A stretch of 64,000 nt of DNA. Origin: Thermosediminibacter litoriperuensis (GTDB taxonomy: Bacteria; Bacillota; Thermosediminibacteria; Thermosediminibacterales; Thermosediminibacteraceae). The stretch spans positions 62,001-126,000 of the forward strand of contig NZ_VNHO01000002.1 in assembly GCF_008124715.1 (NCBI RefSeq). The letters are read 5' to 3'. How positions within the stretch are numbered: the first letter of the stretch is position 1; each line of letters starts with the position of its first letter. Below the pieces are notes generated by a model, which made no database searches, was not told where the DNA came from, and was given only the letters and a program-made list of their open reading frames with translations. The translations under genes were made by a program, and so were the position numbers. Below, piece after piece: positions 35,739 through 55,286 of the stretch.

Positions 35739-35769
35739 TGTAATTTAAAGCGATAAGTTCAAGAACCTG

Positions 35770-35795
35770 CGGGAGAAGTTTTCTCCCGTTTTTAT
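35770..35795 (+). terminator. Terminator after the thiamine-binding-like gene
   Basis: CGGGAGA (35770-35776) pairs with TCTCCCG (35782-35788), followed by seven T. Confidence 0.85.
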
Positions 35796-35802
35796 TTTCA
35801 TA

Positions 35803-35866
35803 TTGCCGAATGGTTTGGATCTATAGTATAATCTTATTAATCATATATATGTTAGATACATATATA
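35803..35866 (+). promoter_or_regulatory. Promoter and inverted repeat upstream of the PadR gene
   Basis: TTGCCG (35803-35808), 18 bases, TATAAT (35827-35832). Downstream is a 9-bp inverted repeat, TATATATGT (35844-35852) and ACATATATA (35858-35866), containing ATGT-N5-ACAT, reminiscent of PadR-family operators. Autoregulation is likely. Confidence 0.65.
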
Positions 35867-35887: not shown

Positions 35888-36289
35888 ATGTGCGGGTGTC
35901 ACGATAGATCCCATCACCGCGGGGGCGAACCGGGATGTCCGGGTTTCAAGATGGAGAAGTTTATGCAGCCCTGTATGCTCCTTCTTCTCTATGAAAAACC
36001 GGCCCACGGCTATGAGCTGATGGAAAAGCTGGCTGAGTTCGGCTTTGGCGGTTATCTGGATCCGGGAGCCGTTTACAGGAACCTCAGGAAAATGGAAGAA
36101 GAGGGCTGGGTTAGGTCCGACTGGGAGACCGGAGAATCCGGCCCTGCCAGAAGGCTTTACACCATAACGCCCGAGGGCGAGGAAGCCATCCATGCCTGGA
36201 CCGTCCACATTATTAACCAGATGGGGAGGCTTAAGGTATTTATCGAAAAATACGAAGGGCTCTTCCGGAAAAAGGAAGACGGAAAGTAG
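35888..36289 (+). CDS. PadR-family regulator with Cys/His-rich N-terminal extension
   Basis: Winged-helix regulator (MQPCMLLLLYEKPAHGYELMEKLAEFGFG, then DPGAVYRNLRKMEEEGWVRSDWETGESGPARRLYTIT). The first 20 residues, MCGCHDRSHHRGGEPGCPG, carry three Cys and three His, a possible metal-binding extension not usual in PadR proteins. The open frame starts at 35810, inside the promoter; ATG 35888 follows TAGGAGGTATC. It is followed at 11 bases by two half-permease genes, whose expression it probably controls. Confidence 0.85.
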   Translation: MCGCHDRSHHRGGEPGCPGFKMEKFMQPCMLLLLYEKPAHGYELMEKLAEFGFGGYLDPGAVYRNLRKMEEEGWVRSDWETGESGPARRLYTITPEGEEAIHAWTVHIINQMGRLKVFIEKYEGLFRKKEDGK

Positions 36290-36300
36290 GGGGGAAGGGT

Positions 36301-36780
36301 TTGTTCACAGCAGTCCTGTATGCGATTTCTATCAGCTTCCTGCTCTTTTCGCTGGCCAGGGATCGCAAAAAGACCAAAACGGCCGTATTGAAGGCATGGA
36401 AGTCCTTCGCCAACCTATTGCCGGCCTTTTTGGGCGTGCTTTCTCTGGTCGGCCTGGTTTTGACTGTGCTGAACCCCGATGTGATTTCCCGGCTCATCGG
36501 AGCCGAGACCGGCTTTAAGGGGATGATGCTCACTTCCGCTATAGGGGCCGTCACCCTGGTACCGGGTTTCGTGGCTTTTCCCCTAGCCGCTTCGCTGCTG
36601 GAAAGGGGGGCGGGTATCATGCAGCTCGCCGTGTTCATCTCCACGCTAATGATGGTGGGCGTGGTTACCCTTCCCCTGGAAATAAGTTATTTCGGGCGGA
36701 AAGAAGCTTTTTTGAGGAATGCAATGGCTTACCTCTTTTCCTTTCTGGTGGCTTTTATCATAGGGATGGTGGTATCATGA
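36301..36780 (+). CDS. Permease half-protein 1 (DUF318/ArsP-like)
   Basis: 159 residues, about four to five hydrophobic segments; AWKSFANLLPAFLGVLSLVGLVLTVLNPDVISRLIGAETGFKGMMLTSAIGAVTLVPGFVAFPLAASLLERGAG resembles one half of the DUF318 (YraQ/ArsP) permeases, which have about eight to ten helices. TTG start after GGGGGGAAGG. It overlaps the next gene by ATGA, so the two halves are translated together and probably form one transporter. Substrate unknown; metal(loid)s or thiols are suggested by the regulator. Confidence 0.75.
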   Translation: MFTAVLYAISISFLLFSLARDRKKTKTAVLKAWKSFANLLPAFLGVLSLVGLVLTVLNPDVISRLIGAETGFKGMMLTSAIGAVTLVPGFVAFPLAASLLERGAGIMQLAVFISTLMMVGVVTLPLEISYFGRKEAFLRNAMAYLFSFLVAFIIGMVVS

Positions 36781-37310
36781 AAAACCTTAAAGCTTACGGA
36801 CTTTTCCTGGCGGTTATCGCTGTTGACCTTGCCATTCTGGTTTATGACAGGGGGCTCGGCGCCAGGATAATCGCCAATACCAGCCGAAATTTTCTTCAGA
36901 TGGCGGGCGTTATCCCACCGATCTTTTTGCTGCTGGGACTGCTGGACGTGTGGGTGCCAAGGGAGACGGTAGTAGGGCTTTTGGGGGAAAAGTCCGGTAT
37001 AAAAGGCGTGCTCCTCAGTGTATTTCTCGGTGCTGCCGCGGCGGGACCCCTGTACGGTGCCTTCCCCGTGGCGGGGGTAATGATCAAAAAGGGAGCCAGG
37101 CTTTCCAACATACTCATCTTCCTGGGGGCCTGGTCGACCCTGAAAATACCCATGTTCCTCTTCGAGATGTCCTCTCTGGGGTATAAGTTTGCGGTGACCA
37201 GGTGGGCTGTGGACGTATTCGGGATAATAATAATGGCCCATCTGATAGAAAGGCTCCTGACCCGGGAGGAAAAGGAGGAAATATACAGGAGGCACGCTGC
37301 GGACTTCTAA
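36777..37310 (+). CDS. Permease half-protein 2 (DUF318/ArsP-like)
   Basis: 177 residues, about four to five hydrophobic segments. NTSRNFLQMAGVIPPIFLLLGLLDVWVPRETVVGLLGEKSGIKGVLLSVFLGAAAAGPLYGAFPVAGVMIKKGA parallels the first half (the G-x-KG-x-L segment and the PLYGAFPVA loop occur at matching places), as expected of a split internal duplication. Start overlaps the stop of the first half. A full-length relative is encoded at 53663-54838. Confidence 0.75.
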   Translation: MKNLKAYGLFLAVIAVDLAILVYDRGLGARIIANTSRNFLQMAGVIPPIFLLLGLLDVWVPRETVVGLLGEKSGIKGVLLSVFLGAAAAGPLYGAFPVAGVMIKKGARLSNILIFLGAWSTLKIPMFLFEMSSLGYKFAVTRWAVDVFGIIIMAHLIERLLTREEKEEIYRRHAADF

Positions 37311-37474
37311 AGATTTTCGGCTCGGTTATCCGGGTTCTTATTTTTTTAGCAGTATAGGGCATATTGAGAATTGAAAAATATACAAAAATGAGTGAAAAAA
37401 TTACCCGTTCGCGGTTGCCTTCCGGAGGTTTTTGCTATAATATAATAGAGACTTTTTTTGGAAGGAAAGTGTTC

Positions 37475-38104
37475 GTGAGGGAATTTTCGGCGGTCATATT
37501 GAACGGGGGGAAGTCTTCCCGAATATCCGTAAAGAATAAAGGCCTCCTGAAGATAGGAGGAATGACCATCCTGCAAAGGATCATTGCTGTGCTGGAGCCG
37601 CTATTCCAGGACATCCTGGTTATATCCAACTCCCCCGGGGAAATCGATTATCTCGAAGGCCGCTGCCGTATATTCCGGGATGAAGTGGAGGGGCTGGGCC
37701 CTCTGGGGGGCATATACACCGGCCTTAAGAAAATGGAGAACCGGGCCGGGTTTTTCGTGGCCTGCGACATGCCCTTTTTGAGCGCAGAGCTCATAAATAT
37801 GCTGCTCGACGCCTCCGGGGGCTTTGACGCGGTATGCCCCCGGTACCGAGGGCTGATCGAACCCCTTCACGCCGTTTACAGCAAAAACTGCATCGATGCC
37901 ATTGAGGTCCTTATTGAAAAGGGAAGCTCCGTTCGGGTGAGGGACCTGTTCGATATGGTAAATACCCGGTATGTTGATATAGATAAAGAAAAAATCCGCC
38001 TTGGATTTTTTAACATAAATACTAGGGAAGACTATGAAAGGGCGCTGCTGTTGGAAAAGGATTCAACTCCGGGTGAACCGGTTTTAAAGGGGGGTTATCC
38101 ATGA
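37475..38104 (+). CDS. mobA: MobA-like nucleotidyltransferase (molybdenum cofactor guanylyltransferase)
   Basis: Adds GMP to molybdopterin in known homologues. The nucleotide-binding signature is AVILNGGKSSRISVKNKGLL, followed by GPLGGIYTGLKKM and the metal-binding FVACDMPFLS. The open frame starts at 37364, but GTG 37475 (9 bases after GGAAGG) gives the standard opening; GTG 37469 is an alternative. Length 209. No other molybdenum genes are in the window. The stop overlaps the antiporter start (ATGA). Confidence 0.85.
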   Translation: MREFSAVILNGGKSSRISVKNKGLLKIGGMTILQRIIAVLEPLFQDILVISNSPGEIDYLEGRCRIFRDEVEGLGPLGGIYTGLKKMENRAGFFVACDMPFLSAELINMLLDASGGFDAVCPRYRGLIEPLHAVYSKNCIDAIEVLIEKGSSVRVRDLFDMVNTRYVDIDKEKIRLGFFNINTREDYERALLLEKDSTPGEPVLKGGYP

Positions 38105-53260: not shown

Positions 53261-53306
53261 AAAGAGGCGGATTGTCAATATGAAGGTCCGCCTCTTTGTT
53301 TTTTTA
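53261..53306. terminator. Bidirectional terminator between dhaM and the CXXC protein gene
   Basis: AAAGAGGCGGA (53261-53271) and TCCGCCTCTTT (53287-53297) pair; a T run follows on the plus strand and A-rich sequence precedes it for the minus strand. Confidence 0.85.
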
Positions 53307-53543
53307 AACATACTGTTGAAGGATTTCTTTTATCTCATCTTTTGATGCGACCTTGCCCGCAACCTTGACCTCGCCGTTAACAACGAGTCCGGGGGTGAAC
53401 ATTATGTCGTATTCCAAAATTTTGTTTATATCCTGTACCTTCTCGATATCTGCGGTAATACCGAGTTCCTTAAGAGCTTCCCTCGTATTTTGTTCAAGAG
53501 CCTTGCATTTGGGGCAGCCTTTACCGAGAATTTTAATTTCCAT
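53304..53543 (-). CDS. Small thioredoxin-fold redox-active disulfide protein
   Basis: 79 residues, MEIKILGKGCPKCKALEQNTREALKELGI with a CPKC active site, the single thioredoxin-like fold of the redox-active disulfide protein 2 family. It is in an operon with the permease and the ArsR regulator upstream on this strand, where such proteins usually occur. Between the permease and this gene is an 8-bp inverted repeat (53589-53596 with 53613-53620), possibly an mRNA processing or stability hairpin. Confidence 0.9.
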   Translation of the reverse strand: MEIKILGKGCPKCKALEQNTREALKELGITADIEKVQDINKILEYDIMFTPGLVVNGEVKVAGKVASKDEIKEILQQYV

Positions 53544-53662
53544 AATTTAACCTCCCTAGTCAATTAAAGATTTTATCCTTTCCTTATATGCCGGCCTCGC
53601 TATTCTATCACCGGCCGGCAGCGGTATCAATAATTTGGTGCGGCTTTTGCGCCGGCGTTATT

Positions 53663-54838
53663 TTATAAGAAGATGGCGCCGAATATATAGCCCGCCAATG
53701 TGGCCATGATGATTACAAGAGAGACGTACGTGATGGTTTTTTTCAGGCCGAGTACGCTGTTTATAACCAGCATATTGGGGAGGCTCAGAGCAGGGCCGGC
53801 CAGCAGCAGAGCAAGGGCGGGACCCTGGCCCATACCGGAACCTAAAAGCCCCTGGAGTATGGGAACTTCGGTGAGGGTGGCGAAATACATGAAGGCTCCC
53901 ACGACCGACGCCAGCAAATTGGCGAAAAGGGAATTTCCGCCGACCATCAAGGCAATGTAACGGGCCGGTATTATACCCGCATCGACGTCCGGGCGCCCCA
54001 TGAGAAAACCTGCCACGAGCACCCCGCCGAAGAGCAGCGGCGTTATCTGCTTTATAAAGTCCCAGGTCGAGTCAACCCAGGAAACCAGCTCTTCCTTTTT
54101 AAACCAGCGGTATAAAATCAGCGTAAGGCTGGCCATAAGCGCGGCTGTAATGTACCATTTTACGGCGTAAACCGAGCTGAAGAAGCCCACCGGCTGTGCG
54201 GGCTTTCCCCATGCGGCGAAGATGAGGATGAGGACGAGGTTTGTAAAATAGATTATTTCCTGATACAGAGTCCTTCCTTCTTCCTGGTCCGAAGAGCCGA
54301 TGAGTCCAATCTTGCTGGTCCTCTCTTTGTCTTCTTTGCCAAACAATAACTCCATAATTAAACCGATAACTACCGCAAAAGTAATTGCCCCGAGAGCCCG
54401 GGCGATCCCCAGCTTCCACCCCAGAATCCGGGCTGTCATTATTATGGCGAGCACGTTGATGGCCGGGCCCGAGTAAAGGAAAGCAACCGCCGGCCCTATT
54501 CCGGCGCCTCTCTTATATATTCCGGCGAAAAGGGGCAACACAGTACAGGAGCATACAGCCAGGATAGTGCCTGAAACTGAAGCTACTGCGTATGAGAGCC
54601 ATTTTTTTGCTTCTCTGCCGAAGTACTTTATAACCGCAGCCTGGGAGATGAAATTGGCTATGGCGCCGGCTATGAAGAGGGCCGGGACAAGGCAAGTCAG
54701 CACGTGGAGCCTGGCGTAGTCCTGGAGCATGTAAAGGGATTCAATCACAGCACCAGTGAATCTCGAGTTTGAAAGGGGCATGTAATACGCGAATAAAAAT
54801 ACGCCGACAATCAAAGATAGTTTCTGCCATTCCTTCAT
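53663..54838 (-). CDS. Permease, DUF318/ArsP (YraQ) family
   Basis: 391 residues, about ten hydrophobic segments. GREAKKWLSYAVASVSGTILAVCSCTVLPLFAGIYKRGAGIGPAVAFLYSGPAINVLAI is the family signature, with its CSCTVLPLF cysteine pair. The related ArsP exports organoarsenicals, but the substrate of this protein is unknown. It overlaps the ArsR gene by ATGA and is followed by the CXXC protein gene. Its two halves correspond to the split pair at 36301-37310. Confidence 0.85.
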   Translation of the reverse strand: MKEWQKLSLIVGVFLFAYYMPLSNSRFTGAVIESLYMLQDYARLHVLTCLVPALFIAGAIANFISQAAVIKYFGREAKKWLSYAVASVSGTILAVCSCTVLPLFAGIYKRGAGIGPAVAFLYSGPAINVLAIIMTARILGWKLGIARALGAITFAVVIGLIMELLFGKEDKERTSKIGLIGSSDQEEGRTLYQEIIYFTNLVLILIFAAWGKPAQPVGFFSSVYAVKWYITAALMASLTLILYRWFKKEELVSWVDSTWDFIKQITPLLFGGVLVAGFLMGRPDVDAGIIPARYIALMVGGNSLFANLLASVVGAFMYFATLTEVPILQGLLGSGMGQGPALALLLAGPALSLPNMLVINSVLGLKKTITYVSLVIIMATLAGYIFGAIFL

Positions 54839-55167
54839 CTTAACATCTCCTTCCCGTTTATAAAACTGTACCTGCTTTTTAGATCCGCTTCCAGAACCTC
54901 ATCAGCGCATTTGAGAAAGTTGACGACACAGGGCATTCTGACTTTATAATTAACCGTCAGGCCCTGTTTTCTGCTTTCTATAATTCCCACGTTCTTCAAA
55001 ACGGCCAGGTGCTTGGAAACCGCCGGCTGGTCGATATTCAATTTATCTGCGATATTGCAGACGCACATTTCACCGTACGTTGCAAGAATCTCGAGGATTC
55101 TCAACCTCGTAGGATGGGCTAGGGCTTTGAATATTGCTGCATACATATCGTATATATCATTGGGCAT
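54835..55167 (-). CDS. ArsR-family transcriptional regulator
   Basis: Winged-helix repressor. KALAHPTRLRILEILATYGEMCVCNIADKLNIDQPAVSKHLAVLKNVGIIESRKQGLTVNYKV is complete. The CVC in the recognition-side helix matches the As(III)/Sb(III)-sensing ELCVCDL motif, and further cysteines lie in MPCVVNFLKC. It controls the permease, which it overlaps. ATG 55167 follows GAGGAGG; the frame is open from 55185. Metalloid response is inferred from the cysteines. Confidence 0.9.
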   Translation of the reverse strand: MPNDIYDMYAAIFKALAHPTRLRILEILATYGEMCVCNIADKLNIDQPAVSKHLAVLKNVGIIESRKQGLTVNYKVRMPCVVNFLKCADEVLEADLKSRYSFINGKEMLR

Positions 55168-55286
55168 ATGAAGAAACCTCCTCACTGGAAAATTTATTAT
55201 ATTCCTATATTAGCATAGAGGCATAAAAATATCAAGACAAATAAAGTTTATTGCCGGAAACCGAGGGCTACCGCCAAATAAATATA

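Follow-up and report, generated by a model that had tools for sequence, protein, structure and literature searches.

A PadR-family regulator with a cysteine-rich N-terminal tail and two half-size DUF318 permeases form a candidate metal(loid)-responsive efflux unit in Thermosediminibacter litoriperuensis

The window analysed here is a 64,000-nt stretch of the genome of Thermosediminibacter litoriperuensis, a heat-loving anaerobe. Three same-strand genes at positions 35888-37310 encode a PadR-family regulator, half-permease 1 and half-permease 2, the two permease genes being joined by a 4-nt overlap (ATGA) (Table 1). PadR and both half-permease genes constitute one predicted transcription unit with hairpins on both sides, the upstream of which divides it from nrdD-nrdG-thiamine-binding-like genes. 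The promoter-like site, the two terminator-like hairpins and the conserved operator, found nowhere else in the genome, agree with the initial annotation, which had described a self-contained regulator and transporter unit. Directly downstream, at 37364-38104, lies a MobA-like molybdenum cofactor gene, as is also the case at loci L038 and L054.

Table 1 Features of the PadR-permease unit and of the full-length relative, in window positions
Feature	Position	Strand	Remarks
Terminator-like hairpin	35769..35789	+	Consensus scan, 9-pair stem and T run; near chance frequency
Sigma-70-type promoter-like site TTGCCG-N18-TATAAT	35803..35832	+	10/12 consensus matches; near chance frequency
Putative operator, perfect inverted repeat TATATATGT-TAGAT-ACATATATA	35844..35866	.	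Palindrome scan
Cys/His-rich N-terminal extension, residues 1-29	35888..35974	+	Cys2, Cys4, Cys17, Cys29; conserved in orthologues
PadR-family regulator, 133 aa	35888..36289	+	Pfam PadR E=3.9e-18, residues 30-102
Half-permease 1, 159 aa, TTG start, no Cys	36301..36780	+	ArsP_1 below cut-off; homologous to half-permease 2
Half-permease 2, 177 aa, no Cys	36777..37310	+	Pfam ArsP_1 above cut-off; orthologues
Terminator-like hairpin 3' of the unit	37319..37336	+	Consensus scan; near chance frequency
ArsE/MTH895-family thioredoxin-like protein	53304-53543	-	Next after the full-length permease
Full-length DUF318 permease with CSC motif	53663-54838	-	SO_0444/SaoE-like, below cut-off
ArsR with CVC	54835-55185	-	Adjoins the full-length DUF318 permease

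The regulator, the sole PadR match in the whole genome, scored 65.6 bits against PF03551 (Pfam cut-off 27). A longer in-frame ORF from 35810 was rejected in favour of the start at 35888, because the latter is closely preceded by a GGAGGT ribosome site and the longer frame would overlap both promoter and operator. Neither of two equivalog cut-offs was reached, with 73.8 bits vs 139.35 for PhaQ (TIGR02719) and 30 bits vs 140 for the Rv3488 family (NF053635), and the closest solved sequence is TM0937 (2esh). A plasmid search with PadR returned distant PadRs only (<60% identity). Members of the PadR group were detected under a strict cut-off in 111 of the 398 Bacillota genomes sampled. PadR proteins are known chiefly as drug and phenolic-acid repressors. 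The window protein has in common with LmrR, bcPadR1/2, TM0937 and Rv3488 the PadR domain, a small size and an inverted repeat with ATG/CAT half-sites, but differs from all of them in its Cys/His N-terminal extension and in Cys29.

The Cys/His-rich N-terminus reported in the initial annotation is real: the sequence begins MCGCHDRSHHRGGEPGCPGFKMEKFMQPC, and all four cysteines of the protein fall within residues 2-29. The annotation had also named a lack of conservation among orthologues as the finding that would count against it, and the Cys-rich extension proved to be conserved in Bacillota orthologues, which approximately follow the pattern MC..C/CxC..RMERFxQPC with His in between. In a survey of 60 further Bacillota PadR loci, 31 of which have the permease pair no more than three genes away, Cys29 was present in all 31 permease-linked PadRs vs 22 of the 29 without a nearby permease. 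At least two cysteines precede Cys29 in 26/31 permease-linked proteins vs 13/29 others (Fisher p=0.0026), a count inflated by nine Moorella loci that represent one genus and one lineage; with these dropped, the figures are 17/22 vs 13/29. Some PadRs of the group have just 0-1 N-terminal Cys. Given how many of the unlinked PadRs carry Cys29 or at least two cysteines upstream of it, the tail is conserved with the permease but is not exclusive to permease-linked PadRs. In Moorella, a separate gene convergent with PadR encodes a Cys/His-rich peptide of 64-76 aa (L058:4751-4945 and L061:4755-4985), which starts with MCGCH in one species, like the window PadR tail, and shows weak similarity to DUF5320.

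The core of the putative operator, TATATG-N7-CATATA, occupies 35846-35864, close behind the -10 element, and most orthologous PadR genes have it in exact form 35-88 bp upstream of their start codon. Its spacer varies among orthologues, and positions in the flanking arms change in a matched way at several loci. This conserved predicted operator is a dyad whose half-sites resemble the canonical ATGT/ACAT motif of the PadR family, while in the window version, read as ATGT-N5-ACAT, the spacer falls short of the 8-10 nt described for LmrR (PMC3506622). Sites with at least 11 of 12 matches were observed at 12 of 18 PadR-plus-permease loci, with an exact match at 10 and with two same-genome duplicates among the 18, vs 1 of 61 permease loci without PadR (p=4e-9). 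In the wider set they were observed at 12/31 permease-linked PadRs and 8/29 other PadRs, and the operator therefore goes with the PadR branch and not with the permease. Exactly one TATATG-N7-CATATA site exists in this genome (G000), with none for the reversed control; five family genomes each have one site, always at the PadR gene, and matches elsewhere in the order are at about the level of the reversed control. As the operator is conserved at PadR-plus-permease loci, nearly absent from those without PadR and present only once in this genome, the repressor is probably local and autoregulatory. A wider regulon was rejected: the looser pattern ATATG-N7-CATAT gave 3 sites in the genome vs 7 for the reversed control, and the two additional sites, in a flagellar gene (C1) and near a methyltransferase cluster (C5), were regarded as chance matches because the control had more.

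In genome G008 (L042), one deletion took the promoter, the operator and most of PadR, including the DNA-binding domain, and joined the upstream DNA to the last ~36 PadR codons 5' of half-permease 1, with the permeases kept. At L069, where no PadR was seen in the vicinity, a perfect operator-like site precedes half-permease 1 by 246 bp; as a contig edge is close, the regulator may be missing or elsewhere.

The ArsP/DUF318/UPF0718 permeases (PF03773; TC 2.A.119) include the ArsP methylarsenite exporter and the NCBIfam SO_0444 Cu/Zn and SaoE families. Half-permease 2 reached 51.3 bits against PF03773 (cut-off 32.3) and half-permease 1 only 24.5, but an alignment of the two halves spans 153 columns (E=1.5e-16), and a weaker one links each of them to one repeat of full-length DUF318 permeases; the two overlapping half-permease genes of DUF318/ArsP type described in the initial annotation are thereby confirmed. 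Half 2 was far below the cut-off of the SO_0444 Cu/Zn exporter family (NF033936; 15.3 vs 300). Although the halves correspond by homology to one repeat each of these permeases, the common form has two repeats in one chain and a Cys-Ser-Cys (CSC) in repeat 1, whereas the window halves are encoded as one repeat per gene, are nearly always paired in relatives and contain no cysteine. An analysis of ArsP repeats described members with 4+4 TMS and also mentions a single-repeat topology (PMC7176098).

Half-permease 2 has matches in 18 of 22 genomes of the order (some of these being full-length relatives), at least 568 confirmed relatives were found in a scan of the genome collection, and orthologues of half-permease 1 occur throughout Bacillota. 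Named hosts include Fervidicola, Moorella, Desulfosporosinus, Sporomusa, Acetobacterium and Clostridium, and metagenome bins labelled Mesotoga, Treponema and Brocadia are also among the hosts. Among the best 80 of the at least 568 relatives, a set chosen by half 2 only, half 1 is adjacent and directly upstream in 78 loci and fused in none, the two exceptions being a contig edge and a pair ~165 nt apart. A frameshift or a broken permease was rejected because of this conserved adjacency and the absence of fusions. The description of a permease 'split in two' holds insofar as there are two genes, which are better seen as a conserved pair of half-size homologues than as the fragments of a single gene. 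The best tree joins the two halves (support 100), but the AU test does not reject the tree expected from fission of a full-length gene (p=0.15). At L046, L047 and L120, the pair is preceded by a small cupin-like gene (judged by eye) instead of a regulator. Among the papers searched, we found none linking PadR with DUF318 or describing a PadR with two half-permeases, in keeping with the earlier impression of an undescribed layout, but the layout is widespread and not unique to this organism; the unit is conserved, probably self-regulated, and present in many anaerobic bacteria.

In AlphaFold2 models (pLDDT 91.9 and 85.4), the two halves have their helices in the same order; a fold search of both models against PDB gave no match at E<=0.001, and no relative of either half was detected among solved structures. 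That each half could be modelled confidently alone would suit independent homodimeric transporters, or one transporter and one regulatory protein, with no heterodimer formed whatever the substrate. This alternative concerns assembly only and can be combined with any reading of the substrate; it is rather unlikely given the pairing, with overlapping genes, in nearly all loci and the repeat homology to a single-chain permease.

With respect to substrate, the window itself contains an ArsR-permease-ArsE cassette (53304-55185) built on a full-length DUF318 permease. The PadR unit resembles this cassette and ars operons in combining a regulator with a DUF318-family permease and in the overlapping types of neighbourhood; unlike them, its regulator is a PadR and its permease is made of two genes. 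The ArsR with a CVC site, which had been taken to make a metal-linked role more credible, is indeed present beside the full-length relative, but it is weaker evidence on the substrate than it looked, because the CSC of that relative, like any other cysteine, is missing from both halves. Co-location with ars genes is absent immediately around the window copy and clear in Moorella, where PadR is divergent from the half-permease pair inside an arsenic island. The island contains ACR3 (464.6 bits, cut-off 282.8), ArsC (206.6, cut-off 174.3), a metalloregulator-type ArsR with CVC, a heavy-metal P-type ATPase and a full-length, SaoE/SO_0444-like DUF318 permease (below cut-off).

Across the 80 loci, the immediate neighbours of the split permeases include ArsR (10/80), thioredoxin-like, ArsE-type Thioredoxin_3 proteins (7/80) and NifX-like proteins (5/80). 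In a control made of genes farther out at these loci, each of the three families stayed at <2/80; as this control excluded full-length permeases, the ArsP_1 neighbour count is not comparable. Several of the ArsRs neighbouring relatives have a CVC-type site, and DUF2703 proteins occur near the unit in three lineages. Metal(loid) and thiol genes are thus found near relatives, in support of the initial annotation, but relatives or their neighbours also include a MOT1 molybdate transporter, a chromate transporter, SBP_bac_11 and MobA as well as sulfur-related genes (DsrE and the cysteine desulfurase family).

Metal(loid) efflux, with arsenic as an example, is favoured over other substrates on account of the Moorella arsenic island, the ArsR, Thioredoxin_3 and NifX-like neighbours and DUF2703, despite contrary signs. 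Against a simple arsenic reading stand the Cys-free halves without CSC and the molybdate, chromate and sulfur genes near some relatives; further points against a metal(loid) operon are the PadRs with no more than one N-terminal cysteine, the lack of any ACR3 in this genome and the origin of the Moorella loci from a single genus. The best explanation, about as likely as not, is an autoregulated, metal(loid)-responsive efflux operon for the sensing and export of thiophilic metal(loid)s, with the Cys-rich N-terminus, the operator and the G008 deletion also counting in its favour.

Such a unit would work like a metalloregulated efflux operon. A PadR dimer bound at the palindrome, a short way downstream of the -10 element, would block transcription of its own gene and of both half-permeases. 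The inducer would be thiophilic, with trivalent arsenicals or antimonials and soft metals as the likeliest ions; by binding the N-terminal thiols (Cys2/Cys4, Cys17 and Cys29, with the His cluster) beside helix 1 of the winged helix, it would release the repressor. The half-permeases, each corresponding to one repeat of an ArsP/DUF318 permease, would be translationally coupled and would assemble into a heterodimeric exporter.

The same thiols might instead serve as a redox, persulfide or Fe-S sensor, with the permease pair moving sulfur or selenium species. The Cys-free halves, the mostly anaerobic named hosts and the thioredoxin-like, DsrE, cysteine-desulfurase/selenocysteine-lyase-like and Se/S carrier domains next to relatives are all consistent with this, but the strongest single context, that of Moorella, is arsenic-specific (ACR3 and ArsC) and several neighbouring ArsRs have the CVC-type site, and we consider a sulfur-related role unlikely. 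The handling of oxyanions (molybdate, tungstate or chromate, for instance), with a structural role for the Cys site, appears more doubtful still. It could draw on the MobA-like gene downstream in the window and in L038/L054, on MOT1 beside PadR in Moorella and on the chromate transporter and SBP_bac_11 beside relatives; however, mobA lies beyond a terminator-like hairpin, no Mo gene is among the listed neighbours at most PadR-plus-permease loci, and the SBP_bac_11-linked PadRs are mostly distant and lack Cys29 and most N-terminal cysteines. PadRs of the wider group adjoin SBP_bac_11 solute-binding proteins at L251, L255, L256, L262, L263 and L218, with a chromate-transporter gene also at L256; the distant ones among them are without the Cys tail, which suggests a separate oxyanion-linked branch. 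Ordinary PadR regulation of drug or stress efflux, with a hydrophobic ligand in the PadR core and an incidental Cys tail, is the least probable reading, as the tail and Cys29 track with the permease and the transporter lies outside known drug-pump families, even though multidrug transporters are often under PadR control and the half-sites are close to canonical (PMC3506622).

Returning to metal(loid) efflux as the preferred reading, a broader and more tentative proposal, which may well not hold in full, is that these proteins form an undescribed class of metalloregulators within the PadR family, widespread and with an N-terminal Cys/His tail as the sensor of thiophilic metal(loid)s; the exporter under their control would be a heterodimeric form of DUF318 encoded by two genes. 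If true, a Cys-tailed PadR branch that shares a conserved operator would amount to an additional class of metalloregulator, and the permease family, with half-size pairs that abound in anaerobes, would gain a testable inducer assay.
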